In this document: piece after piece, positions 29,012 to 53,312 of the stretch | Layout: each line of letters opens with the position of its first letter | Position numbering within the stretch: position 1 is the stretch's first letter | Position numbers and translations under genes: made by a program | NCBI GenBank assembly: GCA_016222805.1 | Contig: JACRQG010000012.1 | Span: 124,001 to 188,000, forward strand | Length of the DNA: 64,000 bases | Direction of reading: 5' to 3' | Source of the DNA: Verrucomicrobiota bacterium | GTDB lineage: Bacteria; Verrucomicrobiota; Verrucomicrobiia; Opitutales; Opitutaceae | The notes under the pieces: model-generated | Told to the model about the DNA's origin: nothing | What the model saw: the letters and a program-made list of their open reading frames with translations, nothing else | Database searches by the model: none

Positions 29012-29045
29012 TTGACGCTGTAAACAGGCGAGCGCAAACGTTTGC
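29012..29045 (+). promoter_or_regulatory. Promoter/operator region of the first receptor operon (LacI-type operator)
   Basis: TTGACG at 29012-29017 is followed 22 bp later (start to start) by the perfect palindrome GCAAACGTTTGC at 29034-29045, which runs into GCCGA. The palindrome would cover the -10 region, a normal place for a LacI-family repressor. The same TTGACG-palindrome spacing and the same 17 bases (GCAAACGTTTGCGCCGA) recur at 36812-36850. The receptor ATG is 46 bp downstream. Confidence 0.8.
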
Positions 29046-29090
29046 GCCGAGTTAAGACCCGGCTGCTTTCTCGAACCCCGATCTCACCCC

Positions 29091-32000
29091 ATGCACCTGC
29101 TGTTGTGGACGCGCTTGGCGTCGAATGGTCTGCCGTGGCCCTGCAACTTTCGCCTCGGAGATCGTGGCCGGGGCATCGTGGCTGGGGCGGTGCTGCTTCT
29201 GGCTGCCGCCCACGGACAGAATCCGGGAACCGGGATTATCGAAGGCCGGGTGCTCCTGCCCGCCACCGGCGAATTCATCGAAGGCGCGCGTCTCTCGATC
29301 GAAGGGGCAAACCTGGAGGCGTTTTCGGACGCGGCCGGAGCCTACCGCCTGACGAACGTCCCGGCCGGCCTCGTGACGTTGAAGCTGTTCCACACCCTTG
29401 GCACCGCGCCGGCGGCCACGGTCAACGTCGCCGCCGGCCAGACGGTGCAGCGCGATTTCCAGCTCGTGGGACTCGCCGGTTCCCCCGTCGCCACGGGCCA
29501 GGCCGTGCGCATGGATGAGTTTGTCGTGGCGACCTCGCGCGAGATGGAGGGCGCCGCCCTCGCAATCAACGAGCAGCGCTTTGCGCCCAACCTCAAGAAT
29601 GTCCACTCGACCGACGAGTTCGGTGGTGTGGCCGACGGCAACGTGGCGGAGTTCCTGAAGAATTTCGCCGGCGTTACGATCAGCTACAGCGGAGGCAACG
29701 CCCGGGAGGTTTCCATCGACGGGGTGCCGGCCACCAACGTGCCGGTGACCATCGGCGGCTTCAACCTCGCCAGCGCGGGTCAGGCGGTGACCAGCCGCAC
29801 CGTCGCCCTCGACATGGTCTCGATCAACAACATGTCGCGGATTGAGGTGAACTACTCGCCGACGCCGGAATCCCAGGGTTCCGCGCTCGCCGGCTCGGTC
29901 AACATGGTGCCCCGCAGCTCGCTCGAGCGTGCGCGCCCCGTATTCAGCGGGAGTGTGTTCCTGATGCTGCGCGACGACGCGCGGGACTTCCACCGAACTC
30001 CCGGGCCGCGGCGGGATCCCACGCGCAAGGTGCACCCGGGCTTCGAGGTGTCGGCAGTGGTGCCGGTGAACAAGCGGTTCGGGTTCACGCTCTCGGCCTC
30101 GAGCTCCACCAACTACTCCTCGCTGGACCTGATGCAGAACTTCTGGCGCGGCACGACCCTGGCGACCAACGGCGTGGCGTTCCCGCATACGACCTTCGAC
30201 CGGCCGTATCTTTCGAGCTACGCGGTGCGCGACGGAGCCAAATACACGACCCGAAACTCCTTCGGGGTCACCGCGGATTTCCGGCTCGCGCCCAACGATC
30301 GCCTGGCGTTCGCGTTTTCGATGTCCACGTTCGACGCACAGTGGATGTTCCGCACGCTGACGTTCAACACCGTGCGGGTGGTGGCGGGTGACTTTTCGCC
30401 GACCCACACGCGCGGCGTGGCCGGCGCCGGCAACCTCACCCTGGTGAACGCGGGCAACAACCGCACCCACCGCACCCTGATGCCGACGCTCACTTGGCGC
30501 CACGACGGTCCGGTCTGGAAGGCGGAGGCCGGTGCCGCCTATTCGCAGGCGATCAACCACAACCGCGGCACCGATTCGGGGGCGTTCCGCAACTCCACCG
30601 CCACCCGCGGCGGCGTGACCGTTTCCTTCGCGGAGGTCGGCTCCTTGCGGCCGGGGGTGGTCACCACCACGGATGCGACTGGCGCGCCGATCGATCCGTA
30701 CCAGATCTCCAGTTATGCAATGACGTCGGTGGATGACACCCAGAACGACTCCGACGACTACCAGAAGAGTGTCTATGCCAACGTGCGCCGCGACTTTTTC
30801 GGGCGCGTGCCGATCTCGCTCAAGGCGGGGTTCGAGGTGCGGCAGGGCATCCGCGACCTGCGGGCGGATCGGACCCTGCCGCACACCTTTGTCGGACGCG
30901 ACGGCCGCACCAGCAACACGCCGGCGGGCGGCGACGACGGGGCGACGCCCTTCCTCGATGCCAGTTACTCGCAGCGCACCGCCCCGTGGGGTTTTCCGCG
31001 CATCGAGTGGGTCAGCAACGAGCGGCTCTGGGAGTATTTCCAGGCGAACCCCTCCCATTTCCAGCTCGATGCCAACGCCCAGTACCGCGACCTCATCGCG
31101 CCGAACAAGCGGGCGGAGGAAATTGTCTCGGCGGCATACCTCCGCGGAGATGTGGCGCTGCTGGACCGTCGCCTGAAACTGACCGGCGGCCTGCGTGCGG
31201 AGCAGACCAACATTTCGGCCTGGGGCCCGCTGACGGATCCAACCCGAAATTTCCAGCGCACTGCCCAGGGTGCGCCGATCCTGGGCGCGAATGGCCGTCC
31301 GCTGCTCATCACTTCTGACCCGCTGGGCATCTCCCGGCTCACCTTTCTCAGCCGCGGCAGCGAGACCGAGAAGGAGTACCTCCGGTTGTTTCCGAGCCTG
31401 AACGCCAGCTACAATCTCCGCGAGAACCTCGTCGTCCGCGCCGCCCACTTCTATTCGGTGGGCCGTCCCGACTACAACCAGTACGCCGGTGGTCTGACCC
31501 TGCCGGACCTCGGGGCGCCGCCGAGCCCGAACAACCGGATCACGGTGAACAACGCCGGGATCAAGGCCTGGCGGGCGCGCAGCACCAACGTGCGGCTGGA
31601 GTACTATTTCGAGAAGGTCGGGCAGATCTCCGCCACGGCGTTCCGGCGCGACATCCAGGATTTCTTCGGTGGCACCACCTTTGTGCCGACGCCGGAGTTC
31701 CTCGCCCTGTATGATCTCAGCCCGAGCGTCTACGACGGCTACGAGGTGGCGACGCAGGCGAATGTCGCCGGCACGGTGCGGTTGACCGGGATTTCGCTGA
31801 ATTATCGGCAGGCTTTGACGTTCCTGCCGGTGTGGGCCCGAGGCGTGCAGGTGTTTGCCAATGGCAGCGCCCAGCGGGCGACGGGCCCGCGGCTGGGCAG
31901 TTTCACCGGAGCGTTCTACAGTCCGCGCAGCGGCAGCGCCGGTTTCAGCGTCACGCGCCCCGCCTGGAACGTCCGTCTCAACTACAACTATCGCGGCCGG

Positions 32001-32258
32001 CAGCGCCGGGCCGAGGTGGCCGCCGGCAGCAGCATCGAACCCGGGACCTACAACTGGGGCGCGCGCCAGACTTACACCGACGTCCTGGGCGAGTATTACT
32101 TCCGCAAGCGCTTCGCGGTTTTTGCGAATCTGCGCAACCTCTACGACACGCCGGACGATTTCGAGGCGGCGGGTCCCAGCACCCCGGCCCACGCGCAGTT
32201 CCGCCAGCGTGAGCGTTTCGGCTCGCTCTGGACCTTTGGCGTGAAAGGCACGTTTTGA
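29091..32258 (+). CDS. TonB-dependent receptor with carboxypeptidase-regulatory-like N-terminal domain
   Basis: 1,055 residues. A hydrophobic signal-type segment lies at about 28-42, then a carboxypeptidase-regulatory-like beta domain at about 48-120 (IIEGRVLLPATGEFIEGA, DAAGAYRLTNVPAG). The plug includes FGGVADGNVAEFLKNFAGV and MSRIEVNYSPTPE; the barrel ends in FGVKGTF. It should bring a ligand across the outer membrane, with TonB supplied from elsewhere. No SusD-like partner is present. First gene of a unit with the GH127-like enzyme and sulfatase, behind a LacI-type operator, so the ligand is probably a sulfated or furanosidic glycan fragment. This is inference from neighbours. Confidence 0.9.
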   Translation: MHLLLWTRLASNGLPWPCNFRLGDRGRGIVAGAVLLLAAAHGQNPGTGIIEGRVLLPATGEFIEGARLSIEGANLEAFSDAAGAYRLTNVPAGLVTLKLFHTLGTAPAATVNVAAGQTVQRDFQLVGLAGSPVATGQAVRMDEFVVATSREMEGAALAINEQRFAPNLKNVHSTDEFGGVADGNVAEFLKNFAGVTISYSGGNAREVSIDGVPATNVPVTIGGFNLASAGQAVTSRTVALDMVSINNMSRIEVNYSPTPESQGSALAGSVNMVPRSSLERARPVFSGSVFLMLRDDARDFHRTPGPRRDPTRKVHPGFEVSAVVPVNKRFGFTLSASSSTNYSSLDLMQNFWRGTTLATNGVAFPHTTFDRPYLSSYAVRDGAKYTTRNSFGVTADFRLAPNDRLAFAFSMSTFDAQWMFRTLTFNTVRVVAGDFSPTHTRGVAGAGNLTLVNAGNNRTHRTLMPTLTWRHDGPVWKAEAGAAYSQAINHNRGTDSGAFRNSTATRGGVTVSFAEVGSLRPGVVTTTDATGAPIDPYQISSYAMTSVDDTQNDSDDYQKSVYANVRRDFFGRVPISLKAGFEVRQGIRDLRADRTLPHTFVGRDGRTSNTPAGGDDGATPFLDASYSQRTAPWGFPRIEWVSNERLWEYFQANPSHFQLDANAQYRDLIAPNKRAEEIVSAAYLRGDVALLDRRLKLTGGLRAEQTNISAWGPLTDPTRNFQRTAQGAPILGANGRPLLITSDPLGISRLTFLSRGSETEKEYLRLFPSLNASYNLRENLVVRAAHFYSVGRPDYNQYAGGLTLPDLGAPPSPNNRITVNNAGIKAWRARSTNVRLEYYFEKVGQISATAFRRDIQDFFGGTTFVPTPEFLALYDLSPSVYDGYEVATQANVAGTVRLTGISLNYRQALTFLPVWARGVQVFANGSAQRATGPRLGSFTGAFYSPRSGSAGFSVTRPAWNVRLNYNYRGRQRRAEVAAGSSIEPGTYNWGARQTYTDVLGEYYFRKRFAVFANLRNLYDTPDDFEAAGPSTPAHAQFRQRERFGSLWTFGVKGTF

Positions 32259-32292
32259 ACGGAGCCAACCGTGGAACCGCGCGGGAATCTTC

Positions 32293-34188
32293 ATGAAGCG
32301 AACCTCATTTCGAAAGCGCCTCGATTCGGATCAGCTCTCCTCTCCAGCGCAGCGGCCGTGGTTGTCCGCCGGGATTTGCGGTGTGCTCGCGGGCTGCGCC
32401 GGACTCTCGCTGGCGCAGGGAGCTGGCGTGCCTGACCAGCTTGCGCCCATGGCTCCTGCCACGGTGGGCGGTTTTTTGGGCCAGCGTCTCGATCTCTGGC
32501 GCACGCACCGCCTGCCGCGGGTGGGGGAGGACGCGTTTCTGCTGCAGGGCTTCGAACGTCCTCCGGGCCAGCACGTCTGGCAGGGAGAACATGTGGGCAA
32601 GTGGATCCACGCCACTACGCTGGCCTGCGTCGCGGCTCCTGATCCCAAACGGCAGGCTCTCCTGCACCAGACGGTGGCAAGGTTGATCGCCACCCAGGCA
32701 CCGGATGGCTATCTCGGCACTTATCTTCCGGCAAACCGCTTCGACAACCCTCGCGATCCCAAGGCCCGGGGCTCTTGGGATGTGTGGACGCACCGTTACG
32801 TTCTCTACGGACTGCTGGTGTACGACCGGCATTTTCCGGATCCCAACGCCGTGGCGGCATGCGTCCGGATCGGCGATCTCCTCTTGCGGACGTTTGGGCC
32901 CGGCGCACGTGCCCTGAACGAAGTCGGCACCCGGGCCGGCCTGTCCTCGGCCACCGTGCTCGAGTCGATCGTGATGCTTTACGAGCGGACTGGAGAGGAA
33001 CGGTTCCTCAGGCTGGCCGAGCACCTGGCCGAAGGCGTGGAGCGCAATCCGGCGCTGCGCCCGACGGACGCGATGCGCGAAGGCCTGGGGGTGACGGTTT
33101 GCGGCGACGGCAAGGCCTACCAGTTGATGGCCGTGATGCTCGGTTATGCGGAGCTCTATCATCACACCCGGCGCCGCGATTACCTCGAGACGGCGATCAA
33201 GGTCTGGGAACAGATTCGGGAGCATCACACCTACGTGACGGGCGGACCGTGGAGCTATGCGGCAGTCCCGGCGCAGAATGCCGAGTGCTTTGCGCCGCCC
33301 TCGTTCTTTCATCCGACGAATTGTGTCGAGACCTGCTCCACGACCACGTGGGTCCAGCTCTCGCTGAGGCTGTGGCGGCAGACCGGGGAGGCCCGGTTTG
33401 CGACGGAGGCGGAGCGGGCGATGCTGAATCACCTTGTCGGCGCACAGTCGCCCAACGGCACGGACTGGGCCTACCACACCATGCCCAACGCCCCGAGCCG
33501 GGGTTACGAGAGTGCCATCACCTGTTGCGCCTCGAGCGGCCCGCGGGCGTTGGAGCTGTACGCGCGTCATCTCGCGGCAACAGGATCCGGTGCCTTGGTC
33601 GTGAACAGCTATCTGCCTGCGGTCGTGGGTTTGGATTCCAAGCTGGGTGCGGCGGGACGCTTCGTCATCGAGGGCCGTTACCCCTTCGAACCTCAGGCCG
33701 CCCTGCGCGGTGAATTGACGCAGCCGGCGGAACTGACCCTGCACTTCCGTCTGCCAGCGGGAGTCACAGCGATGGATGTGGTCGTGGGCGGGCAGCCGCA
33801 AGCGCTGCGGCCGACGCCGGCTGGGTACCTCGAGCTGAAGAGGACATGGCGACCGGGTGAAAAGGCGGTCGTGAGGTTCGAATTTCCCCTGCGGGCCCAC
33901 TTTCAAACGGGACGGGACGGCGTGCGTTGGGTCGCCTTTACCTGGGGCCCGCTCACGCTCGCGCAGGACGTCGTCCGGCAGGTCGACCAACCCGAAGTGG
34001 TGCTCGCGCTGGACGAAAAGAACGCGGACCCCGCCGCCTGGCTTCGGCCGGTCACGCCGGCCCGCGATGACGGTCTGCCGCGCTGGCGTCTCACGGCCGC
34101 CGGCCACCGCAACGTGATCCTCCAGCCCTATGGTTCCATTGGCGCCTCGGGCGGTGCGGTGCGCACGATGTTCCCGAACCACCGTTGA
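32293..34188 (+). CDS. GH127-like glycoside hydrolase (beta-L-arabinofuranosidase type)
   Basis: 631 residues. A signal-like N-terminus (about 20-45, ending SLAQGAG) is followed by an (alpha/alpha)6-type domain with GYLGTY, WDVWTHRYVLYGLL and HHTYVTGG, then a beta-rich C-terminus. GH127/DUF1680 site residues are intact: VETCSTTTW gives Glu346 and Cys348, and TCCASSGPR gives Cys411 and Cys412, matching the Glu-Cys-Cys-Cys zinc site and Cys nucleophile of HypBA1. The known activity of the family is release of beta-L-arabinofuranose, but many members are untested. It lies 34 bp after the receptor and 30 bp before the sulfatase. Confidence 0.85.
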   Translation: MKRTSFRKRLDSDQLSSPAQRPWLSAGICGVLAGCAGLSLAQGAGVPDQLAPMAPATVGGFLGQRLDLWRTHRLPRVGEDAFLLQGFERPPGQHVWQGEHVGKWIHATTLACVAAPDPKRQALLHQTVARLIATQAPDGYLGTYLPANRFDNPRDPKARGSWDVWTHRYVLYGLLVYDRHFPDPNAVAACVRIGDLLLRTFGPGARALNEVGTRAGLSSATVLESIVMLYERTGEERFLRLAEHLAEGVERNPALRPTDAMREGLGVTVCGDGKAYQLMAVMLGYAELYHHTRRRDYLETAIKVWEQIREHHTYVTGGPWSYAAVPAQNAECFAPPSFFHPTNCVETCSTTTWVQLSLRLWRQTGEARFATEAERAMLNHLVGAQSPNGTDWAYHTMPNAPSRGYESAITCCASSGPRALELYARHLAATGSGALVVNSYLPAVVGLDSKLGAAGRFVIEGRYPFEPQAALRGELTQPAELTLHFRLPAGVTAMDVVVGGQPQALRPTPAGYLELKRTWRPGEKAVVRFEFPLRAHFQTGRDGVRWVAFTWGPLTLAQDVVRQVDQPEVVLALDEKNADPAAWLRPVTPARDDGLPRWRLTAAGHRNVILQPYGSIGASGGAVRTMFPNHR

Positions 34189-34218
34189 TTTCACCACTTC
34201 ACGTCCGGACTCTTCCTC

Positions 34219-35685
34219 ATGAAACTTTCCCTGCGCATCCTGCCGTTGCTGGCGTTTACCTTGGCGCTGACGGCCGGGCCCGTCACGGCCGCCTCCGCTC
34301 CATCGAAGCCCAATGTCATCGTCATCCTCGCCGACGACCTTGGCTGGACTGACCTCGGCAGCTTCGGCAGCGATCTCCACGAGACCCCGCACCTCGACCG
34401 GCTGGCGCGCGAGGGGATGAAGTTCACGCAGAACTACTCCGCGTGCACCGTCTGCTCGCCGACCCGCGCGGCCCTGATGACCGGCAAGTATCCGGCGCGC
34501 TTGCACCTCACCGACTGGATCCCCGGCGCGATGCCGGACAACCCGAAGCTGCTGGTGCCCGACTGGACCAAGCATCTCCCGCTCGAGGAGACGACGCTGG
34601 CGGAAGTGTTCAAGGCCGCCGGCTACGCCACCGGTTCGATCGGCAAGTGGCACCTCGGCACGGAGGATTATTACCCGGAGAAGCAGGGTTTCGATGTCAA
34701 CATCGCCGGCACCGACAAGCCGCAGCCGCCGACCTATCATGCTCCCTGGAAGATCCCGACGCTCGTGCCGGATGGGCAGCCGGGGGACTACCTCACTGAT
34801 CGCATGCGCGAAGAAGCGGTGAAGTTCATCGAGCGGATGCGCGACCGGCCGTTTTTTCTTTATCTGCCGCATTTCGCCGTGCACACGCCCATCCAGGGTC
34901 GCGCGGACCTGGTCGAAAAGTACCAGAAGAAGATCCGGGAGGGCCTGCGCCACCGCAATGCGGCGTACGCCGCGATGACCGAGAGTATGGACAGCGCGGT
35001 GGGTCGGGTGATCGCCAAGCTGGAGGAGCTGAAGCTGCGGGAGCGCACGATCGTGGTGTTTACCTCCGACAACGGCGGCCGCATCACCCAGGGCACGACC
35101 ACCAACGTCCCGCTGCGCTACGGTAAGGCCTCCGCGTACGAGGGTGGGGTGCGGGTGCCGCTGATTGTCCACTGGCCGGGAGTCACGCGGCCGGGAAGTG
35201 TGTCGGACGCCCCGGTGATCACGATGGACCTCTTTCCGACCTTGGTGGAGATGGCGGGCCTGCCGGTGTCCTCCACGCGCACGGCCCTCGATGGCGTCAG
35301 TCTGGTGCCGCATCTGCGGGGCGGGGCGCCACCGGCGCGGCAGGAGCTCTTCTGGCATTATCCCCACCACCAGCATTATCAACTCGGGGGTGCGATGCCC
35401 TATGCCGCGATCCGCTCCGGGGACTTCAAGTTGATCGAGTTCTACAACGACCTGAAGGACGTGAAAATCGAACTCTACAATATCCGTGCGGATATCGGTG
35501 AAACCCGCGACCTCGCCGGGGCCGAGCCTCAGCGCGCCGCCGACCTGCGCGCGCGCTTGCATGCGTGGCAGAAGCAGGTGGGTGCGCAGATGGCCACCCC
35601 CAATCCCAATTACAACCCCGCGCGCCCGGAGTATACCCCGCCTCCGGGCAAGGCCAAGAAGGCGGCGGGCCGTGGCGAAGACTGA
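34219..35685 (+). CDS. Exported sulfatase (S1 family)
   Basis: 488 residues with a signal peptide (about 1-25). Metal-binding KPNVIVILADDLGW near the N-terminus (Asp39, Asp40), the formylglycine motif CSPTR at 79-83 inside CTVCSPTRAALMTG, GKWHLG with Lys and His, FTSDNGG for the metal and a later LYNIRADIGETRDLA. Cys79 should be converted to formylglycine by a maturase not present here. It removes sulfate esters from carbohydrates; the subfamily is undetermined. In the same operon as the receptor and GH127-like enzyme, which suggests a sulfated glycan. Confidence 0.93.
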   Translation: MKLSLRILPLLAFTLALTAGPVTAASAPSKPNVIVILADDLGWTDLGSFGSDLHETPHLDRLAREGMKFTQNYSACTVCSPTRAALMTGKYPARLHLTDWIPGAMPDNPKLLVPDWTKHLPLEETTLAEVFKAAGYATGSIGKWHLGTEDYYPEKQGFDVNIAGTDKPQPPTYHAPWKIPTLVPDGQPGDYLTDRMREEAVKFIERMRDRPFFLYLPHFAVHTPIQGRADLVEKYQKKIREGLRHRNAAYAAMTESMDSAVGRVIAKLEELKLRERTIVVFTSDNGGRITQGTTTNVPLRYGKASAYEGGVRVPLIVHWPGVTRPGSVSDAPVITMDLFPTLVEMAGLPVSSTRTALDGVSLVPHLRGGAPPARQELFWHYPHHQHYQLGGAMPYAAIRSGDFKLIEFYNDLKDVKIELYNIRADIGETRDLAGAEPQRAADLRARLHAWQKQVGAQMATPNPNYNPARPEYTPPPGKAKKAAGRGED

Positions 35686-35751
35686 GCGGTCGGAGCGCTT
35701 TCGGCATCGTCAGGTGAGGGGAGGATCGCCGATACTGGTGGAACTGCCACG

Positions 35752-36753
35752 ATGGAACGCTCCTCCAGCCTAGTCGAAGTCGCCCGGCGCGCGAAGGTCT
35801 CGATCTCCACGGTTTCCCGCACGATCAACCAGACGGGCAAGATCAGCCAGGAGACGCAGGAACACGTGCGCCGCGTGATGCGGGAACTCGGCTACAAGCC
35901 GAACCGGGTCGCCCGCCGGCTGCGCGCGGGCGGCAAGTGTCACCTGCTTGGGCTGATCATCCCCAACATCCAGAATCCGTTCTTCGCGGACCTGGCGCGG
36001 GGTGTGGAGGACGTCGCCTTCCGCAACAACTACGCCGTGCTCCTCTGCAATTACGACGAAGACGCCGACAAGGAGAGGTTTTACCTCGACGTGATGCAGC
36101 AGGAATCGGTCGATGGGATCATCCTGCCGCCGATTCACGAGCAGGATCCGGCCGTGTGGCGAGTGGTCCGGAGCGGCATGCCGGTGGTCTGTGTCGACCG
36201 GTCGCTCGCCGACGCCTCGATCGATCGGGTGGAAATCGACAACCGACGCGGCGCCTTCGATGCCGTGAACCACCTGATTCAACGCGGGCACCGGCGCATC
36301 GGGGTGATTTCCGGCCCGGCGGATTCCTCCACGGGCCGGGAGCGGCTGGCCGGTTGCCGGCAGGCCCAGGAGCAGGCCGGTCTGGCGCTGACGGCGGACC
36401 TCATCCGTTACGGAGACTACAAACAGGAGAGCGGGAGAAGCCTGGCCGCGGATCTGCTCGCGCTGCCCGAGCCCCCGACTGCCCTGTTTGTCTCCAACAA
36501 TCTGATGACGATCGGGGCGATCGAGGCGATCCACGCGTTGCGGTTGCGGATTCCGGAGCAGGTGGCCCTGGTCGGATTCGACGACCTGCCTTTGGCTGCT
36601 GTCTTTAATCCGCCGCTGACCGTCGTTCGCCAGCCGGCCTATGACGCTGGCCGATCTGCTGCTGAACTCCTCTTCCAGCGCCTCGAAACTCCCGCGCGGC
36701 CGCCGACGAGCCTAGTGCTGCTTCCCGAGTTGATTGTCCGGCGATCAAGTTAG
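35752..36753 (+). CDS. LacI-family transcriptional regulator
   Basis: 333 residues. Helix-turn-helix at 7-26 (LVEVARRAKVSISTVSRTIN) and hinge helix at 50-58 (PNRVARRLR) with Leu57 in the place of the leucine that wedges into the central CG of LacI/PurR operators. The periplasmic-binding-protein-like domain starts at HLLGLIIPNIQNPFFADLARGV and contains VDGIILPP, FVSNNLMTIGAIEA and LVGFDDLPLA; the ligand is likely a small sugar or nucleoside-related compound. The gene sits between the two receptor units, which both carry the palindrome GCAAACGTTTGC, so it is the obvious regulator of both. It could be self-regulated by read-through from the first unit. Confidence 0.93.
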   Translation: MERSSSLVEVARRAKVSISTVSRTINQTGKISQETQEHVRRVMRELGYKPNRVARRLRAGGKCHLLGLIIPNIQNPFFADLARGVEDVAFRNNYAVLLCNYDEDADKERFYLDVMQQESVDGIILPPIHEQDPAVWRVVRSGMPVVCVDRSLADASIDRVEIDNRRGAFDAVNHLIQRGHRRIGVISGPADSSTGRERLAGCRQAQEQAGLALTADLIRYGDYKQESGRSLAADLLALPEPPTALFVSNNLMTIGAIEAIHALRLRIPEQVALVGFDDLPLAAVFNPPLTVVRQPAYDAGRSAAELLFQRLETPARPPTSLVLLPELIVRRSS

Positions 36754-36798
36754 GTTAGGGATTTCACAATAAGATTTTATGTGATTGCCGAAGTTTAG

Positions 36799-36810: not shown

Positions 36811-36811
36811 A

Positions 36812-39874: not shown

Positions 39875-39875
39875 G

Positions 39876-44763: not shown

Positions 44764-47667
44764 ATGAACCGCTTCCTCCTCTTGGTTGCTTTATCTCCCG
44801 CCGCCCTTTCCGGCATCGCCTCGGCGGCGACGATCTCCGGGACAGTGCGCAACGAGAGCACCCGCGCCCATCTCGAAGGCGCCGAGGTCACCCTGATCGA
44901 GAGCGGCGTGACCGTGGTGACCGATCGCAGCGGGAGCTTCCAGTTGCGCGGCGTGCCGCCCGGACGACAGCGGCTGGTTTTTCGCTACGCCGGGCTGGAT
45001 CCGCAGGAGACCACCGTTGAGGTCAGCGAGGAACGTCCTCCGGCCCCGTTGGCCATCGGCCTCACTTCGGCGGTCTATCAGCTCGACGCCTTCGTGGTGA
45101 CGACTGACCGCGAAGGCAATGCCGCCGCCATCACGGCGCAGAAGAAGGCGCCCAACCTCGCCACGATCATCGCCACCGACGCCTACGGTAACATCGCCGA
45201 CGGCAACATCGGCAATCTCGTGCAGCGTCTTTCCGGCGTCGACCAGACGCGGAGCAACGGCGACATCATCGGCTTTGGCGTGCGGGGCGTGCCGCAGACT
45301 CTAAGCACGGTCTCGGTTGACGGCGCCGTGCTATCGGCCGCGAACGGCGGCTCGGGTTCGATCGGCGACCGCGCCTACCCGATCGACAACCTGCCGGCGG
45401 AACTGGTGCAAACCGTGCGGCTGACCAAGGCCCCCACGCCGGACATGCCAGCCGACTCACTCGGCGGCAACGTGGACCTCGTGACCAAGTCCGCCCTCGA
45501 AGTGGCGGGGCGTCGCATCAGCTACCGGGTCGGCCTCAACAACAACCTCTATCGGGGCAACACCGCCTGGACGCCCACGGCCTCCCTGACCTTCCTCGAT
45601 ACCTTCGGCCGCGAGCGGAAACTCGGTGTGGCCATCACGGGCAGCCACTCGGAGGCCACCAACACGCGCGACCGTCTCCAGAACACCCTGGCGTTCGCTC
45701 CGGACACCGCCGTCATTGTCAACACGCGGCTGCGCCTCCTCGACGACATCGTGGAGCGCGTGCGCAGCGGCGGGAGCGCCAAGCTAGATTGGCGGCCCGC
45801 CGACAACCTGACGCTGAGCCTCGACGCCATCGTCACCCGGACGACCTACGCCCTCGACCGTAGCGACTACCGCCTGAGCGGCATCAACCGGGTGGCCGAC
45901 TATGCGCGCGTCAGCCGGGAGGCCATCTTCGCCGGGACCGTGGCGCGCACGACGTCGAATCAGACGGCCTCACTCGCGCCGGGATTCACGGATGCGTTTC
46001 AGGAAGTGTTGAACGCCACCAACCAATACCTCATCGCCGACGAGACCCGCGCGAACGGGATGTACAAGATCGGGTTCCGGACCCACTGGCGGCGGGATGA
46101 CGGCTGGCTGGAATTACGCGCCAGCCACAACGCCTCCAAGTCGGACTACTTTCTCCACCAGATCTTCACGACGGCCGGAGGCGGTTTCGGCTACTCGCTC
46201 GACACGACGCAGCATCGCAACCGTCCGCGGGTCACCCAGCTCTACGGTCCCACGGTGTTCGCCGGCGCCGATCTTTCGCGCTATACGGCCCAGTACCTTT
46301 TCACCCCGACCAACGTGCACGATGTCACCGACGAGGTGCGCGCCGACTGGCACCGCGATTTTGCCGGTTCGCGACTGCCATGGAGTCTGCAGGCCGGGCT
46401 GGCCTACCGCGGGAAGGACTACCGTACCCTGGCGAACAACCGGACGTTTAACTTCGTTGGCTCCGACGGGGTGGCCGGCCGCAATGCAGCCACCGGACTG
46501 AACGACGACAATCTGGCGCAATTCTACCGGGGTCCGTCCAACGCGATGTTCGACGGCTATTATCCCCGTTTCGACACGCTGGTGGTCGGCAGGGCGGCGG
46601 CGCTGTTTGCGAGCCAGCGCAACCAGTTCGTGCAACTCGCCACCGACGTGACCTTGCCCGAGGCTCGGTTGGAGGAGGACGTAACTGCGGCCTATGCGAT
46701 GGGCCAGACGCGTCTCGGGAGGTTTTCTGTCCTCGCCGGATTGCGCGCCGAACGCACAGACGTGGAGGCGACCGGAAGCCTGCGTTTGAACAACGCGCCG
46801 GTCTTTGCACTCACCACGCGGGAGGCCAGGTACACCCAGTGGTTCCCTGGAACCCACCTGCGTTACGAACTCACCCCGCAGTTTCTGGTGCGGGCCAGTT
46901 GGTCCACCGGGGTGGGGCGGCCGGCGATCAGCCAGCAGTTGCCGACGACGACCATCAACACGAATGCCACCACGGGACTTGGAACCGTGAACGCCAACAA
47001 CACCAACCTCCGGCCGATGTTCAGCCAGAACTACGATCTCGGGCTGCAATACTACTTCAAGGGTGTCGGCATGGTCGCGGTGGGCGGGTTTCAGAAGAAG
47101 ATCAAGGACTTCATCAACTCCCGCCGCACCCTCGTCGGGGCGGGCCCGGGCAACGGTTTCGGCGGCCAGTACGAGGGCTACGACCTGGTTACCCAGGAGA
47201 ACCTGAGCTCGGCGGAGATCCGCGGGATGGAGTTCGACTATTCCCAGGTGTTGACCTTCCTGCCGCGGGCCCTGCAGGGCAGTTCGGTCTTCGGCAATTT
47301 CACGTGGATGGAGACCGCGGGCCAGTTTCCGGACGGCAGCAGCAGCCTGCCGGGGTTCCGGCCGATGCTCGCCAATGCCGGAGTGGTGGTGAAATACCAG
47401 CGCGGCCTCGTGCGCGTCTCGTACAAGTACCAGTCGGGCGGGCTCGTTTCCTTCAATGCCGATCCCACCCTGCGCACCTACAGCACGGAGGATCGGACCG
47501 TGGACCTCAACCTCCAGTACCAGGCCACGCCTCGCTTCACGTTCTTCATCGACGTCATCAATCTTTTCGATGCCGCGCCCAAGACCTATGTCATCAAGCC
47601 TCGCTTCATCCTGACCGATGAATTCAATGGCACCCGCCTCAACGTCGGCGTCAGCGGCCGGCTCTGA
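44764..47667 (+). CDS. TonB-dependent receptor, second of a paralogous pair
   Basis: 967 residues with a signal peptide (about 1-21) and the same layout as the receptor at 36968: carboxypeptidase-regulatory-like domain (ISGTVRNESTRAHLEGAEVT), DREGNAAAITAQKKAPN, DAYGNIADGNIGNLVQRLSGV, PADSLGGNVDLVTKSA and a C-terminal VGVSGRL. The terminal residue is Leu rather than the usual Phe. The pair is similar across plug and barrel, pointing to duplication. It is followed 28 bp later by a nucleoside hydrolase, as its paralogue is followed (after one gene) by the other copy. Confidence 0.92.
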   Translation: MNRFLLLVALSPAALSGIASAATISGTVRNESTRAHLEGAEVTLIESGVTVVTDRSGSFQLRGVPPGRQRLVFRYAGLDPQETTVEVSEERPPAPLAIGLTSAVYQLDAFVVTTDREGNAAAITAQKKAPNLATIIATDAYGNIADGNIGNLVQRLSGVDQTRSNGDIIGFGVRGVPQTLSTVSVDGAVLSAANGGSGSIGDRAYPIDNLPAELVQTVRLTKAPTPDMPADSLGGNVDLVTKSALEVAGRRISYRVGLNNNLYRGNTAWTPTASLTFLDTFGRERKLGVAITGSHSEATNTRDRLQNTLAFAPDTAVIVNTRLRLLDDIVERVRSGGSAKLDWRPADNLTLSLDAIVTRTTYALDRSDYRLSGINRVADYARVSREAIFAGTVARTTSNQTASLAPGFTDAFQEVLNATNQYLIADETRANGMYKIGFRTHWRRDDGWLELRASHNASKSDYFLHQIFTTAGGGFGYSLDTTQHRNRPRVTQLYGPTVFAGADLSRYTAQYLFTPTNVHDVTDEVRADWHRDFAGSRLPWSLQAGLAYRGKDYRTLANNRTFNFVGSDGVAGRNAATGLNDDNLAQFYRGPSNAMFDGYYPRFDTLVVGRAAALFASQRNQFVQLATDVTLPEARLEEDVTAAYAMGQTRLGRFSVLAGLRAERTDVEATGSLRLNNAPVFALTTREARYTQWFPGTHLRYELTPQFLVRASWSTGVGRPAISQQLPTTTINTNATTGLGTVNANNTNLRPMFSQNYDLGLQYYFKGVGMVAVGGFQKKIKDFINSRRTLVGAGPGNGFGGQYEGYDLVTQENLSSAEIRGMEFDYSQVLTFLPRALQGSSVFGNFTWMETAGQFPDGSSSLPGFRPMLANAGVVVKYQRGLVRVSYKYQSGGLVSFNADPTLRTYSTEDRTVDLNLQYQATPRFTFFIDVINLFDAAPKTYVIKPRFILTDEFNGTRLNVGVSGRL

Positions 47668-47695
47668 GCCGGCAACCTCTCTTCCCCTTTCCTTC

Positions 47696-48733
47696 ATGAC
47701 TGCCATCGCCATGCGCCTCCTCCGCACCTTCCCGCTGATCCTCCTCTTCGGAGGCTTGATCCAGGCCGCGCCGGTCAAACTGATCTTCGACACCGACATG
47801 GGCAACGACGTCGACGACGCCATGGCCCTGGCGATGATCCACAGCCTGCAGAAGCGCGGGGCGGTGGAACTTCTCGCCGTCACGATCACGAAGGACCACC
47901 CCAAGGCGGCGGCCTTTGTCGATGCGATGAACACCTTCTACGGCCGGCCGGACGTGCCGATCGGCGTCGTGCGGCAGGGCGCCACCCCGGAGCCGGGCAA
48001 GTTCAACCAGGTGGCCGATGCCACGAACCCCGACGGTTCCCTGCGGTATCCGCATGATCTGCGGAGCGGCGAGCAGGCTCCGGAAGCGGTCGGGCTCATC
48101 CGAAAGATTCTCGCGGCCCAGCCCGATGCGAGCGTCGCGCTCGTGCAGGTGGGTTTTTTCACGAACTTCGCGCGCCTGCTCGACTCCAAGCCCGATGCCC
48201 ACTCGCCCCTCGCTGGCCGCGAGCTGATTGCGAAGAAGGTCAAGGTGTTCTCCATCATGGCCGGCGCCTTCCAGACGGTGAACTGGAACACCCGGCACTT
48301 GGAGTACAACGTGATCAAGGACATCCCGGCCGCCCAGGGTCTGGCGAAGCGCTGGCCGACGCCCGTGATCTGGAGCGGCTTTGAGATCGGCGTGGCCGCG
48401 GCCTATCCGCACGTCTCGATCGAACGCGACTTCGAGTATGTGAAGCACCATCCGCTCAAGGAATCGTACTACGCCTACAATCCCCCGCCGCACGATCGCC
48501 CCACCTGGGATCCCACAGCGCTGCTCTACGCGGTCTACCCGGATCGCGGTTATTTTGATCTCTCCCCGCCCGGCACCGTGACCGTCGAGGACAATGGCGC
48601 GACCTGGTTCCGGCCCGGGCGCGACGGCAAGGGGCAGCACCGTTATCTCGTGATGAGTCCGGCGCAGGCGGCCCGGGTGCGCGAGGCCATCGTCCAGCTT
48701 TGCGTGGAACCGCCGGCCAAACTTCCTCGCTGA
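47696..48733 (+). CDS. Exported nucleoside hydrolase-like protein, copy 2
   Basis: 345 residues from ATG 47696; ATG 47711 gives a tidier signal peptide (MRLLRTFPLILLFGGLIQAA), so export is likely either way. The IUNH signature FDTDMGNDVDDAMAL is the same as in copy 1, as are DHPKAAAFVD, GKFN--ADAT, VQVGFFTNFARLLDSKPD and DLSPPGTVT-EDNGATWFRP. Here no lipobox is seen, so this copy is probably soluble in the periplasm and copy 1 may be membrane-bound. It is followed after 21 bp by the ribose-type binding protein, linking ribose release to ribose uptake. Confidence 0.87.
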   Translation: MTAIAMRLLRTFPLILLFGGLIQAAPVKLIFDTDMGNDVDDAMALAMIHSLQKRGAVELLAVTITKDHPKAAAFVDAMNTFYGRPDVPIGVVRQGATPEPGKFNQVADATNPDGSLRYPHDLRSGEQAPEAVGLIRKILAAQPDASVALVQVGFFTNFARLLDSKPDAHSPLAGRELIAKKVKVFSIMAGAFQTVNWNTRHLEYNVIKDIPAAQGLAKRWPTPVIWSGFEIGVAAAYPHVSIERDFEYVKHHPLKESYYAYNPPPHDRPTWDPTALLYAVYPDRGYFDLSPPGTVTVEDNGATWFRPGRDGKGQHRYLVMSPAQAARVREAIVQLCVEPPAKLPR

Positions 48734-48754: not shown

Positions 48755-49696
48755 ATGAACCGCCTCTCTCTCCTTGGTCTCGCAGCCGGACTCCTCCTCC
48801 TCGGTGGCTGTGCAAAGTCCGATTCGCCGTCCAGTGCCGCCGCCGCACCGGCCAAGCCCCGCGTCGCCCTGGTGATGAAGTCCCTCGCCAACGAGTTTTT
48901 CGGGACGATGGCGGAGGGCGCAAAGAAGCACGCCGCCGCCCACGCCGCCGACTTCGATCTGATCGTGAATGGCATCAAGAACGAGACCGACCTCGCCGAG
49001 CAGGTTTCGCTGGTGGAGCAGATGATTGCGATGCGCGTGCAGGCCATCGTTATCGCTCCCGCGGATTCCAAGGCGCTGGTTCCGGTGCTGAAGCGCGCCC
49101 TCACCGCCGGCATCGTGGTCGTCAACATCGACAACCGCCTCGACGCGGCGGCCCTGAAGGAGGCCGGCATCGCCATACCTTTTGTCGGGCCCGACAACCG
49201 CGCCGGTGCGGCCGCCGTTGGGCGCGCGCTCGCGAAGAAGCTCCAGAAGGGTGACCCGGTGGCGATCATCGAGGGTATTCCCACCGCCGACAACGGCCGG
49301 CAGCGCCGGCTCGGCTTCGAGGATGCGATCAAGGAAGCCGGCCTCAACCTGGTCACGACCCAGAGCGGCCAGTGGGAGATGGAGAAGGCCAACGGCGTCG
49401 CCTCCTCGATGCTCAATGCTCATCCGAACCTGAAGGCGATCTTCTGCGGCAATGACAACATGGCCCTGGGGGCGGTGGCCGCGATCAAGGCCGCTGGCCG
49501 CGAGGGCAAGGTGCTGGTCGCCGGCTTCGACAACATCAGCGCGATCAAACCGCTGCTCGCCAGCGGCGCGGTGGTCGCCACCGCTGACCAGCATGCGGAT
49601 CAGCTTGCGGTCTTCGGCATCGACGCCGCGCGCGAGATGCTGCGGACCAAGAAGACGGCGGATCGCGCCACCCCGGTGGATCTCATCGGACGGTGA
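48755..49696 (+). CDS. rbsB: Ribose-type ABC transporter substrate-binding lipoprotein
   Basis: 313 residues with a lipobox (LLGGC, Cys19), so tethered in the inner membrane facing the periplasm. Sugar-binding type I fold as in RbsB: VALVMKSLANEFFGTMAEGAKK, IVIAPADSKALVP, VVNIDNRLD, PFVGPDNRAGAAAVG, and a hinge with FCGNDNMALGAV. The arrangement of Asn, Asp and Arg residues fits ribose-binding proteins, but other pentoses are not excluded. It is first of rbsB-rbsA-rbsC-rbsK, in a different order from E. coli rbsDACBK, and is separated from rbsA by 105 bp holding a short hairpin repeat. Confidence 0.88.
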   Translation: MNRLSLLGLAAGLLLLGGCAKSDSPSSAAAAPAKPRVALVMKSLANEFFGTMAEGAKKHAAAHAADFDLIVNGIKNETDLAEQVSLVEQMIAMRVQAIVIAPADSKALVPVLKRALTAGIVVVNIDNRLDAAALKEAGIAIPFVGPDNRAGAAAVGRALAKKLQKGDPVAIIEGIPTADNGRQRRLGFEDAIKEAGLNLVTTQSGQWEMEKANGVASSMLNAHPNLKAIFCGNDNMALGAVAAIKAAGREGKVLVAGFDNISAIKPLLASGAVVATADQHADQLAVFGIDAAREMLRTKKTADRATPVDLIGR

Positions 49697-49801: not shown

Positions 49802-51331
49802 ATGACCGCTTCACGCCTCCAGGTTCGCGGCCTGACAAAAGCCTTCGGCGCCAACACCGTGCTGCGCGGGTTGGATCTCGATCTCGCTGTCGGCGAGATT
49901 CACGCGCTCATCGGAGGCAACGGGGCCGGCAAGTCGACGTTTTCCAAGATCCTCGCGGGTCTGCTGCCGCGGGATGGGGGCGAGATCAGCCTCGATGCCG
50001 CGGGCTACGCTCCGAGAGATCGCCGTGCGGCCCAGGCAGCCGGGGTCGTCATGGTGCTGCAGGAACTGAGCGTGCTGCCCACGCTGAACGTGGGGGAGAA
50101 CCTCTTTCTCCACGCGCTCCCCACGCGTGGCGCGGGCATCATCGACCGGACGAGGCTGGCGTCCCAGGCCCGGGCGGCGCTCGACCGGGTGGGTCTGTCG
50201 GGGCTTGATCCGGAAACCCCGGCGGCGACCCTCGGCGTGGGTCACCAGCAACTGGTCGAGATCGCGGCGGGGCTGGCCCAGGAGTGCCGCGTCCTGATCC
50301 TCGATGAGCCGACCGCCGCGCTGACGCGGGCGGAAATCGAGACGCTGTTCGGGCTCCTGCGCAGCCTGCGGGCCAGGGGAACTTCGATCCTCTACATCAG
50401 CCATCGGCTCGATGAAATCAGTGAACTCGCGGATCGGGTCAGCGTTCTCCGCGACGGGCAGTTGATCGCCACCCTGCCGGCCAGGGAGACTTCGCGGGAC
50501 CAACTGATCACCCTCATGGCGGGCGAAGCCGGCGAGAAGGCGAAGGCAACACAGTCGGCTGGGAAGATCGGACCGGTGCTGCTGCAGGTGCGGGATCTTC
50601 AGGCTGGCCCCGCGGTGCGCGGGGTGTCGCTTGCCGTCCATGCCGGCGAGATTGTGGGCCTCGGTGGTCTGGTCGGGGCGGGGCGCACCGAGTTGCTGCG
50701 CGCGATTTTCGGGGTGGATCGGGCCACCGGCGGCGAGGTCCGCTTCGGGCCCGGTTTGGTTCCGGTTGCCCCCGGATCTCCGCGGGCCGCCCTGGCCGCC
50801 GGTTTCGCGTTTGTTCCGGAGGACCGCAAACAGCACGGGCTGTTTTCCCCTCTGAGCGTACAATGGAATGCCAGTTGTGCCCGCTGGCCGCAGCGGCGGC
50901 GCTGGCTGGGTTGGCTGGATCGGGTCGCGGAAGCAGCGGAGGCCGGAGAACTGCTGTCCCGATTGCAGGTGCGCTTCTCGAATCTCGGTCAGGCCGTGGC
51001 CGAACTGAGCGGCGGCAACCAGCAGAAAGTCGTGATCGGGCGCTGGCTGCGGCGGGAGATCCGGGTCTGGCTCCTCGACGAACCCACCCGGGGCGTCGAC
51101 GTCTCGGCCCGGCGGGCCATCTACGCGCTGCTGCGCGAGCGGGCCGCCAGCGGCGCCGGCGTGCTGGTCGCCTCGAGCGACTACGACGAACTCGCTGCGC
51201 TCTGCGATCGGATCGTCGTTTTGTCCCAAGGCCGCGTGGCCGGCGAATTCACGCCGGCGACGCTCAACCCGGCGGCCTTTCTCGCCGCCGCCTTTCACGG
51301 CTTCTCCGGTACCGCCACCTCCCGCTCCTGA
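49802..51331 (+). CDS. rbsA: Ribose-type ABC transporter ATPase (two nucleotide-binding domains)
   Basis: 509 residues from ATG 49802, a fused duplicate ATPase. Domain 1: Walker A GGNGAGKST, signature-like LGVGHQQLVEIA, Walker B VLILDEPTAAL. Domain 2: degenerate Walker A GLVGAGRTE, signature LSGGNQQKV, Walker B VWLLDEPTRGVD. A regular Walker A in the first half and a degenerate one in the second is normal for RbsA/MglA/XylG. It drives import of the sugar by the permease encoded 1 bp downstream. It is last-but-two in the operon. Confidence 0.93.
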   Translation: MTASRLQVRGLTKAFGANTVLRGLDLDLAVGEIHALIGGNGAGKSTFSKILAGLLPRDGGEISLDAAGYAPRDRRAAQAAGVVMVLQELSVLPTLNVGENLFLHALPTRGAGIIDRTRLASQARAALDRVGLSGLDPETPAATLGVGHQQLVEIAAGLAQECRVLILDEPTAALTRAEIETLFGLLRSLRARGTSILYISHRLDEISELADRVSVLRDGQLIATLPARETSRDQLITLMAGEAGEKAKATQSAGKIGPVLLQVRDLQAGPAVRGVSLAVHAGEIVGLGGLVGAGRTELLRAIFGVDRATGGEVRFGPGLVPVAPGSPRAALAAGFAFVPEDRKQHGLFSPLSVQWNASCARWPQRRRWLGWLDRVAEAAEAGELLSRLQVRFSNLGQAVAELSGGNQQKVVIGRWLRREIRVWLLDEPTRGVDVSARRAIYALLRERAASGAGVLVASSDYDELAALCDRIVVLSQGRVAGEFTPATLNPAAFLAAAFHGFSGTATSRS

Positions 51332-51332
51332 C

Positions 51333-52295
51333 ATGCTTCGTTCCCGCGGTCTTTCCGAGTTCCTCTTTCTTGCGCTTCTGCTCGCGGCGCTCGTCGGGTT
51401 GTTCGGCCTGCTGAGCGATCACTTCTGGTCGCTGGGCACGCTGCAGACGGTGACCAACCGGATTCCTTCGCTCGCGCTGGCGGCGCTGGGCCTGACGTTC
51501 GTCCTTGTGGCGGGGGGCATCGATCTCTCGGTCGGATCCGTTTCCGCGGTAGCCGGTGCGGTGTTTGGCTGGTGTGTGGCCGATCGCGGGATGCCGGTGG
51601 CCGTGGCCGCGGGCGCCGCTTTGGGTGCGGCGCTGGTCTGCGGCGTGATCAACGGGGCGCTGGTCAATGCGCTGCGCATGCCCTCGTTCATCGTCACCCT
51701 GGGCCTGCTCGAAGGGGCGCGAGGGTTCGCCTACCTGGTGACCAACTCGCAGACCAAGTATCTCGGCGAGCGGCTGGCGCTGCTGCAGGCGACCCCGGTG
51801 GGCGGCCTCTCCGTGGCGTTTCTGCTCGCGGTGGCGCTTACCGCCACTGCGCACTTCGTGCTGACGCGGACCGTGCTGGGCCGTCACCTCGTCGCGGTTG
51901 GCACCAACGAGGAGGCAGCGCGGCTGATCGGGGTGTCGCCGACGCGGGTGCGCGCCGTCGTTTTCGGAATCTCCGGCCTGCTGGCCGGACTGGCAGGGTT
52001 GTGCCACGTGGCGCGGCTCGGCGCCGCCGATCCCAACGCCGGATCCGGCCTGGAGTTGTCCGCGATCGCCGCCGCGGTGATCGGAGGAACGAGCTTGATG
52101 GGGGGGCGCGGCTCGATGCTCGCGACCTTTATCGGTGTCCTGATCATCGCGACGTTGGAGGCCGGGTTGGCGCACCTCGGCGTGTCCGAACCCATGAAAC
52201 GGGTGGTCACTGGCGTGGTCATTGTCGGCGCCGTCGCCGCCGAGTCGATCCGGGCGCGGATCGCGGCGCGGCGAGCCCGGCAGGGGGGACTTTGA
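51333..52295 (+). CDS. rbsC: Ribose-type ABC transporter permease
   Basis: 320 residues, about 8-10 membrane helices. Family marks: LALAALGLTFVLVAGGIDLSVGSV near the N-terminal third, MPSFIVTLGLLEGARG, GRHLVAVGTNEEAARLIGV and the GGTSLMGGRG loop that contacts the ATPase. It forms the sugar channel with RbsA and RbsB. The start lies 1 bp after the rbsA stop. Confidence 0.93.
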   Translation: MLRSRGLSEFLFLALLLAALVGLFGLLSDHFWSLGTLQTVTNRIPSLALAALGLTFVLVAGGIDLSVGSVSAVAGAVFGWCVADRGMPVAVAAGAALGAALVCGVINGALVNALRMPSFIVTLGLLEGARGFAYLVTNSQTKYLGERLALLQATPVGGLSVAFLLAVALTATAHFVLTRTVLGRHLVAVGTNEEAARLIGVSPTRVRAVVFGISGLLAGLAGLCHVARLGAADPNAGSGLELSAIAAAVIGGTSLMGGRGSMLATFIGVLIIATLEAGLAHLGVSEPMKRVVTGVVIVGAVAAESIRARIAARRARQGGL

Positions 52296-52382
52296 GGCAC
52301 CATGAACCTGCGACTTGGCGGCCCGAAGGGCGCGCTGACGATCAGAGGCGACGCCTCACCTTCCGAGCCCCGTTCTTCTTTC

Positions 52383-53312
52383 ATGCAGTCTGCTTTTCCA
52401 TCCTCCGCCGGCCGCGTGACCGTGGTCGGTTCGCTCAATGTCGACCGCATCTGGCGCGTCGCCCGTCTGCCCCGGCCCGGAGAGACGGTCTTTGCCACGG
52501 AGACGCGACTGGAGTTTGGGGGCAAGGGGGCCAATCAGGCCGTCGCCGCCGCGCGGCATGGGGCGAAGGTGTCGATGATTGGCGCCCTCGGGGCGGATGC
52601 GGACGGCGCCCTGTACCGGGAGCACCTGCGGCGGGAGGGAGTGGGGGAGGCCGCGGTGGCGGCGTTGTCCGGGGTTGCAAGCGGGGCGGCGTTCATCTGC
52701 GTCGATGGCGGTGGGGAGAACCAGATCCTGGTCGATTCCGGTGCCAACGGCCGACTGACCGTGGCGCAGGCGGAAGCGGCTCTCGCCGCTTTGCTGCCCT
52801 CCTGTGACACTCTTCTGGTCGGCCTGGAGTGCCCGCTGGCGGTGGCCGTGGCGGCGTTGCGGGCGGCCGCGCGCGCCGGCGTCCGGGCCTTGTTCAACCC
52901 ATCACCCGTCGTGCCGGAGTTTCCCTGGGGAGAGGTGCCGATCGACACCGTGATCGTGAACGAACACGAGTGCGCGGAGATCTTCGGATCGGCCGAGGCC
53001 ACCGCGCCGGCCCGCCGGGGCGTGCGCCACCTGGTGGTGACGCAAGGGGCGGCGCCCACGCTCTTCGTGTCTGCGGACGGCGTGCGCAGCATCGCCACGC
53101 ACCCCGTGACTCCGCGCGACACGGTGGGGGCAGGCGACACCTTCGCCGGCACCCTGGCCGCACGACTGGCCGAGGGGACGGAGTGGGGCGAGGCCATCGC
53201 GATCGCCAACGTGGCTGCTGCGCTCTCGACGCTGGGCGCCGGGGCGCAGACACCGATTCCGCGACGAGCGGAAGTGGAGGCAGCATGGCGGGTCGTCGGG
53301 CGCCAGAGCTGA
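52383..53312 (+). CDS. rbsK: Ribokinase
   Basis: 309 residues from ATG 52383; a longer start at 52302 adds 27 polar residues that are not part of the fold. PfkB family: VVGSLNVDRIWRV, the GGKGANQAVAAA substrate motif, and DTVGAGDTFAGTLAA with the catalytic Asp and anion hole. It makes ribose 5-phosphate from ribose and ATP, completing the pathway from nucleoside hydrolases and RbsBAC. Related sugar kinases are possible, but the neighbours favour ribose. End of the + strand island. Confidence 0.9.
   Translation: MQSAFPSSAGRVTVVGSLNVDRIWRVARLPRPGETVFATETRLEFGGKGANQAVAAARHGAKVSMIGALGADADGALYREHLRREGVGEAAVAALSGVASGAAFICVDGGGENQILVDSGANGRLTVAQAEAALAALLPSCDTLLVGLECPLAVAVAALRAAARAGVRALFNPSPVVPEFPWGEVPIDTVIVNEHECAEIFGSAEATAPARRGVRHLVVTQGAAPTLFVSADGVRSIATHPVTPRDTVGAGDTFAGTLAARLAEGTEWGEAIAIANVAAALSTLGAGAQTPIPRRAEVEAAWRVVGRQS

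Follow-up and report, generated by a model that had tools for sequence, protein, structure and literature searches.

A locus in an Opitutaceae genome that probably represents a ribose operon enlarged for TonB-dependent use of nucleosides

TonB carbohydrate utilization (CUT) loci, in which TonB receptor genes are clustered with inner-membrane sugar transporters, enzymes for monosaccharides, and glycoside hydrolases (GH), have been described in freshwater Verrucomicrobia (PMC5615132). RbsR regulons are known in Proteobacteria (PMC4052901), and in Bifidobacterium the LacI-family paralogues RbsR2 and RbsR3 control ribokinase together with rihC and transporters (PMC4746261). In Pseudomonas aeruginosa the periplasmic nucleoside hydrolase (NH) Nuh converts adenosine and inosine into base and ribose, which are then imported (PMC5437708), and Bacteroides thetaiotaomicron scavenges ribose and nucleosides through the rus locus, with its own regulator (RusR) and ribose transporter (RusT) (PMC12596196). 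Here we describe an island of genes at positions 29012 to 53312 of a 64,000-nucleotide stretch, called the window below, from a member of the Opitutaceae (Verrucomicrobiota; assembly GCA_016222805.1, contig JACRQG010000012.1, positions 124,001 to 188,000). All of its genes lie on the plus strand: a first unit of three genes, a LacI-family regulator gene, and a second unit of ten genes that runs from the TonB-dependent receptor (TBDR) gene TBDR2 to RbsK.

We consider it probable that this island is a ribose operon (rbsR, operator, rbsBACK) that was enlarged into a TonB-dependent utilization locus with nucleosides as the source. This reading is built on the gene content, on operators that are confined to the locus, on a set of LacI, kinase, and operator that is conserved in related loci, and on the linkage of NH and rbs genes in relatives, all at the level of sequence. 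From these we infer the repression, the ribose effector, the nucleoside substrate, the cargo of each receptor, and the roles of the GH127, sulfatase, GH84/GH67-like, and propeller-like proteins. The LacI protein, acting as RbsR, would bind GCAAACGTTTGC before each unit and hold both units off until ribose or a close relative releases it. TBDR1 to TBDR3 would carry ribose-bearing compounds across the outer membrane, the exported enzymes would trim what has been imported, and in the periplasm the two exported NH-fold enzymes would split nucleosides at the ribosyl bond. RbsBAC would take in the freed ribose, which RbsK would convert to ribose 5-phosphate. The first-pass annotation had described two receptor-led units around a LacI gene, and all the genes that it named are indeed there, on the plus strand; its list for unit 2 was incomplete, as it omitted a hydrolase-like gene of 785 amino acids (aa) and a propeller-like gene of 469 aa. 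The features are as follows.

29034 to 29045, no strand: LacI operator O1, GCAAACGTTTGC, part of a perfect palindrome of 16 bp (29032 to 29047), before unit 1
29091 to 32258, plus: TBDR1, TonB-dependent receptor with CarboxypepD_reg and Plug domains, under the TIGR01782 cut-off
32293 to 34188, plus: GH127-type exported hydrolase (PF07944, PF20736)
34219 to 35685, plus: exported sulfatase (PF00884, 222 bits)
35752 to 36753, plus: LacI-family regulator, proposed RbsR (PF00356, PF13377, PF00532)
36799 to 36810, no strand: LacI operator O2, exact copy of GCAAACGTTTGC
36834 to 36845, no strand: LacI operator O3, exact copy of GCAAACGTTTGC, 35 bp from O2, before unit 2
36968 to 39874, plus: TBDR2, TonB receptor (TIGR01782, 384 bits; cut-off, 310)
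39870 to 42227, plus: exported hydrolase-like protein, GH84/GH67-like, 785 aa (profile against PDB; no Pfam match over cut-off)
42224 to 43315, plus: NH1, exported nucleoside hydrolase (PF01156), Tyr at the His241 position, lipobox-like signal by eye
43306 to 44718, plus: propeller-like protein, GH137-like, 469 aa (weak profile similarity to chain 5mqr, E 0.0045)
44764 to 47667, plus: TBDR3, TonB receptor (TIGR01782, 401 bits; cut-off, 310)
47681 to 48733, plus: NH2, exported nucleoside hydrolase (PF01156), Trp at the His241 position, start uncertain
48755 to 49696, plus: RbsB-type substrate-binding protein, lipobox-like signal by eye
about 49802 to 51331, plus: RbsA-type ABC (ATP-binding cassette) ATPase with two ABC domains, start uncertain
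51333 to 52295, plus: RbsC-type permease (family scans)
about 52383 to 53312, plus: RbsK, ribokinase-type PfkB kinase (family scans), start uncertain

The operators carry much of the argument for a common control. In the 7.9-Mb genome (95.6% complete) GCAAACGTTTGC has exactly three exact copies, all within the island (29034, 36799, and 36834), one before TBDR1 and unit 1 and two before TBDR2 and unit 2, with the LacI gene between the units; both units therefore form the predicted regulon. In the window, AAACGTTT was found at no position beyond the three operator copies. The same pattern read backwards, which served as a control, has no exact copy in the genome, and with three copies against none in 7.9 Mb we rejected a chance origin of the operators. 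When one mismatch was allowed, operator and reversed control were equal (9 and 9 in the genome), and with two mismatches the window gave 3 matches, as shuffled sequences do (mean, 2.55), so that exact copies alone are informative. Control of the island by LacI, as the first-pass annotation had proposed, is thus well supported, with binding being predicted, and the operator is conserved in orthologous loci. The LacI gene, which starts 66 bases after the sulfatase gene, may itself be readable from the unit-1 promoter; from a promoter scan of positions 28900 to 37000 nothing was used.

In the family, an exact operator copy is present in 36 of 200 genomes. The reversed control also occurs in many of these 200, mostly once and in one genome (G051) three times, so single copies mean little. 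Among 16 stretches around exact copies, a close LacI was seen in four (L241, L243, L244, and L255), and another (L242) has a LacI of 25% identity by BLAST.

The 200 family genomes were also searched for the LacI protein itself. A match at E 1e-100 or better was present in 28 of them, and we examined 29 loci in the other 27 (the LacI of L290, which is not in the gene calls, was taken from this search). Fifteen loci have a LacI of 65 to 72% identity and the remaining 14 one of 54 to 64%. A ribokinase-type kinase was found by BLAST in the cluster in 15/15 of the former, and the kinase of L255, the only one from an orthologue locus that was scored, reaches 260.8 bits with the ribokinase model. The operator core CAAACGTTTG is present in 13 of these 15 loci, compared with 1 of the 14 (G133) with a LacI of lower identity. 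One genome, G115 (L297), has a plain ribose operon, in which a LacI of 67% identity is followed by CGCAAACGTTTGCG, RbsB, RbsA, RbsC, and RbsK (77, 65, 73, and 54% identical, respectively, to the proteins of the window). Set beside it, the island looks like a ribose operon with receptors and hydrolases inserted between the operator and rbsB. A search of 150 genomes gave 23 with an NH2 relative, and G115 was not one of them.

Three kinds of nucleoside hydrolase are associated with this regulator and kinase. In G053 and G005, LacI and the kinase stand with a RihC-like NH, the start of which has no clear export signal. Facing LacI and the operator in G133 are genes for the kinase, an NH, a pair of BNR_2 proteins, a DHDPS-family enzyme, and an SSF-like symporter, and the edge of the stretch cuts a receptor, 47% identical to TBDR2, down to a 159-aa end. 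In G046 (L150), an operator, an NH, a pair of BNR_2 proteins, and a receptor with 38% identity to TBDR2 adjoin a LacI and a kinase. Between the NHs of the window, of G133, and of G053 and G005, identity is 22 to 32% for those that BLAST can align, and we read such dissimilar enzymes beside the same partners as separate recruitments. In our view this threefold tie, as a sequence pattern, is the best evidence here that the NHs may feed ribose to the kinase.

The link between NHs and ribose genes extends far beyond these genomes. We collected the best 80 of 400 confirmed NH relatives from a contig scan, many of whose loci are cut by contig ends; genes in fetched loci were called with a simple caller and labeled by BLAST to proteins of the window or of L255, so starts are approximate. 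Most of the 80 NH loci belong to Verrucomicrobiota, with others from Kiritimatiellota, Lentisphaerota, Planctomycetota, and one metagenome-assembled genome (MAG) of Acidobacteriota. RbsB, RbsC, or RbsK is present in 55 of them, and none of the three in 25, several of which are short contigs. RbsB and RbsC occur together in 34/80. These genes always share the strand of the NH gene (RbsB, 36/36; RbsC, 40/40; RbsK, 29/29), compared with 32/60 for sulfatases. The chain from exported NH over a ribose-type importer to a ribokinase-type kinase, as laid out in the first-pass annotation, thus recurs widely in relatives. In 100 loci (the 80 NH loci plus 20 that were hand-picked; 1.685 Mb), CAAACGTTTG has 10 copies, where composition predicts 0.9; nine of them stand before RbsB and the tenth, in G046, before an NH gene. 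The site in L082 is the same perfect 16-mer as O1. In L082 and L094 the operators fall inside the called RbsB gene, and in L082 an ATG follows the site. Judged by these comparisons, the NH-ribose core, even with its operator, is wider than this genome.

RbsA was found in 5 of the 34 loci with RbsB and RbsC, in one case (L102) on the other strand, and tblastn adds L051. The other 29 loci (within L054 to L115, e.g., L055, L090, and L108) have no RbsA in the stretch. Fourteen genomes with such loci (G200 to G213) all have an RbsA-like ATPase elsewhere, with 37 to 46% identity, so the genes for permease and ATPase are either separated or shared there. Eleven NH loci (L038, L041, L043, L048, L049, L081, L085, L096, L149, L150, and L156) have, near the ribokinase gene, a protein that clusters with Ureide_permease/Sugar_transport (Pfam on the L156 member), which is apparently an alternative importer. 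In L054, L059, and L064 a related palindrome, TTTGCGCAAA, stands before RbsB in place of CAAACGTTTG; it may be an altered operator belonging to the LacI of these loci, which is more distant (34 to 35% identity).

NH1 and NH2 match PF01156 with 78.0 and 72.2 bits (gathering cut-off, 34.2) and, by eye, start with export-signal-like stretches. The metal-binding Asp cluster, the last Ca-coordinating Asp, and the equivalents of Glu166 and Asn168, which bind ribose (the residue numbers are partly assumed), are conserved in 135 to 136 of 137 aligned NHs, including NH1 and NH2. The group I His before the last Ca-coordinating Asp is absent, with Tyr in NH1 and Trp in NH2; in the alignment this position is Trp in 115/137 and His in 17/137. 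Both enzymes fall inside one 49-row clade of the NH tree. A Trp at that His position is a mark of group II nucleoside hydrolases (PMC8910321). The Trp of NH2, set against the Tyr of NH1, suggests that NH2 may favor purines.

Nucleosides are the likeliest substrate on this sequence evidence, since most NH-rbs operons stand without glycan genes. The word "nucleoside" in the first-pass title is likely to be right. Several observations weigh against our reading, and they are gathered here and in the next three paragraphs with the alternatives that they favor. The GH127, the sulfatase, the GH84/GH67-like enzyme, and the GH137-like propeller are apparently under the same LacI and would be superfluous for a pure nucleoside route. 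In the NHs, the Asn160 equivalent is not conserved (Asn in 35/137). The operator adjoins a LacI of only 29 to 30% identity in L245 and L256, and nine operator-bearing stretches (L246 to L254) have no such LacI by BLAST, so the operator by itself is no proof of this LacI. The loci of G053 and G005 lack the operator core. As expected of an RbsR, the LacI protein has the LacI-type helix-turn-helix and sugar-binding domain, and its gene is linked to rbs genes that are preceded by the predicted operator; it misses the NCBIfam RbsR equivalog cut-offs (237 of 531 bits for NF007743 and 225 of 382 for NF047341), and for that reason we call it RbsR-like.

The importer also misses its equivalog cut-offs (RbsB, 143 of 337 bits; RbsA, 383 of 745; RbsC, 172 of 398), as does RbsK (244.2 of 299.65 bits with TIGR02152), although this is still its best family and RbsK is the top ribokinase match of the genome (next, 93 bits). 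AraG is the best-scoring model for RbsA. For RbsB the closest match is 4YLE (60%; no paper naming this code was found among the literature matches listed), followed by allose-type binders. It keeps 8 of 11 positions that we take to be the ribose contacts of Escherichia coli RbsB; the three that differ are Ala 64, Asn 90, and Trp 164. RbsB agrees with AlsB at 64 and 164, as well as at position 9, and at position 90 it resembles neither protein. An importer and kinase for another aldose, such as allose or arabinose, with the route misnamed, would account for the allose-binder-like positions and the AraG-like score, but we regard it as very improbable: RbsK scores highest with a ribokinase model (244 bits), nucleoside hydrolases release ribose, and G115 has the complete LacI-rbsBACK order at 54 to 77% identity. 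Among plasmid relatives of RbsB, the one annotated neighborhood (L199) has RbsD and LacI and no annotated NH.

A different reading concerns the substrate. The island could be a glycan or glycoside locus, in which a perhaps sulfated, ribofuranose-bearing substrate is stripped by the GH127, propeller, GH84/GH67-like, and sulfatase proteins and ribofuranose is freed by the NH-fold enzymes or the GH127. The same operators precede the GH127-sulfatase unit and the NH unit, and in 9 of the 15 orthologue loci with the closest LacI, a cluster with three or four operators comprises the ribokinase-type kinase, a GH127, an SSF symporter, and a TonB receptor (families by Pfam for L255 and by BLAST to L255 for the others); two further clusters (L288 and L290) are cut short. 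Orthologue loci with a GH127 (9/15) thus outnumber those with an NH (2/15). G046 and G133 both combine BNR_2 propeller proteins with an NH, a kinase, and a TonB receptor. Nevertheless, we consider this reading unlikely. The GH127 of the window is only 33 to 35% identical to those of the orthologue loci, and in the 80 NH loci a GH127 is present in one and a TBDR1 relative, the only TonB receptor label, in one. The NH fold is known for N-ribosides, and the open-licence literature searched yielded no paper joining "ribofuranosidase" and "glycoside hydrolase." In a bolder form, the RbsR regulons of Opitutaceae would be centered on glycans or glycosides that bear ribofuranose and perhaps sulfate, with GH127 or exported NH-fold enzymes acting as ribofuranosidases; this is speculative, and we doubt it. 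If true, it would mean a new GH127 activity or an NH fold used in polysaccharide utilization, and it would explain both the co-location of GH127, kinase, and operator in the nine loci and the GH127 behind an operator here. A protein with an FGE-sulfatase domain (718 aa in L255) is also encoded in ten orthologue loci with a LacI of about 70% identity (L241, L243, L244, L255, L287, L289, and L291 to L294), most of which have CitE-like and CoA-transferase III genes beside the operators.

The receptors and the two added genes of unit 2 raise a further alternative. TBDR2, TBDR3, the GH84/GH67-like gene, and the propeller gene have no counterpart in any of the 80 NH loci by BLAST label (L081 has a weak match to the propeller profile). 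TBDR2-like receptors with a GH84/GH67-like gene and without an NH are found in other Opitutaceae stretches (e.g., L159, L163, and L164) and once more in this genome, in L151, so TBDR2 may serve a glycan. The GH84/GH67-like copy in L151 (contig C14) is split over two overlapping frames, beside TBDR3-like and TBDR2-like receptors, and may be broken. In profile searches against the PDB, the N terminus of the 785-aa protein resembles O-GlcNAcase nagJ, hexosaminidases, and alpha-glucuronidases (E 1e-7 to 4e-4), and the 469-aa protein weakly resembles 5mqr, named a beta-L-arabinobiosidase; presumably these correspond to families GH84, GH20, GH67, and GH137. Both are leads from profiles, with no Pfam match over cut-off and no NCBIfam match. 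A fold of the propeller-like protein predicted from the single sequence (mean pLDDT, 34.7) was left unused. In TIGR01782, TBDR2 and TBDR3 pass the cut-off and TBDR1, with 250 bits, fails. One could thus see two modules that share a regulator only, a nucleoside/ribose operon and an unrelated arabinofuranoside or glucuronoside locus joined by promoter capture, with receptors for glycans only. Ribose and nucleosides are, as general knowledge has it, small enough for porins, and one of these receptor loci without an NH (L163) has a DHDPS-family gene. We hold this to be quite improbable, because G046 and G133, which have the same operator core, repeat the combination of a TonB receptor, an NH, propeller proteins, and the kinase, and because the genes of unit 2 overlap or nearly abut with their functions interleaved. 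Their order alternates as TBDR, enzyme, NH, enzyme, TBDR, NH, and rbs, and the gaps are -5, -4, -10, 45, 13, 21, 105, 1, and 87 bases, in keeping with the short gaps and single direction claimed earlier. An enlarged ribose operon with nucleosides as the source thus probably remains the better description of the island.

Some genes of related function lie outside the island. RbsD is absent from the locus, and two RbsD/FucU genes are present elsewhere in the genome, as are two 5_nucleotid_C matches and one xanthine/uracil permease. Among the genes of the locus that were scanned, neither a phosphatase nor a base transporter was seen, in agreement with the first-pass annotation; no search for nucleases was made in the rest of the genome. 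A long open frame on the minus strand (window positions 53474 to 55282) converges on the end of the island and is overlapped by a plus-strand frame without a Pfam match.

The rus ribose locus of B. thetaiotaomicron reportedly has a SusC/SusD pair (Glowacki 2020). In contrast, Pfam scans of the island genes found no SusD family, as the first-pass annotation had said, and the island has a LacI regulator and an RbsBAC importer. The Bifidobacterium regulons are those of a Gram-positive organism, with a RihC-type hydrolase, nucleoside transporters, and no outer-membrane receptors, and the available text does not mention GH127 or sulfatase (PMC4746261). Nuh of P. aeruginosa is under quorum-sensing control, and the available account names no outer-membrane transporter (PMC5437708). 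In clustering TBDR genes with an inner-membrane transporter, a GH, and a regulator, the island has the makeup by which CUT loci are defined, although no nucleoside hydrolase or ribokinase is reported in the available text on these loci, from the main part of which the word "ribose" is absent (PMC5615132). The claim that such a layout is undescribed in Verrucomicrobiota must therefore be narrowed. TonB carbohydrate loci are published, and the NH-rbs layout, with RbsB and RbsC in 34 of 80 loci, is not unusual; the claim stands for the TonB-dependent NH-ribose version, as we found no description of the island layout in titles or abstract starts of open-licence papers on Verrucomicrobi- or Opitut- nucleoside hydrolase, ribokinase, and TonB. 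The island offers a testable RbsR-type regulon for Verrucomicrobiota, whose use of nucleosides and ribose is scarcely described in the literature searched, and the recurrent pairing of GH127 and a ribokinase-type kinase at one operator raises the question of which ribose-bearing compound is cleaved by which enzyme. The closest relatives of the island are the rbsBC-NH-NH-rbsK operons of Verrucomicrobiaceae and related MAGs, which share codirectional RbsB, RbsC, RbsK, and exported NHs of the same family; nine of these loci also have the operator core of the island in front of RbsB. They differ in having no TBDR2, TBDR3, GH84/GH67-like gene, or propeller gene by BLAST label and in that RbsA is mostly outside the stretch. 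On this comparison of sequences, the NH-ribose core is not new and is common in relatives. What looks new is its TonB-dependent version, with a GH127, a sulfatase, and two glycosidase-like genes behind the same operators, and this version would show how an ordinary ribose operon can reach the outer membrane without SusD.

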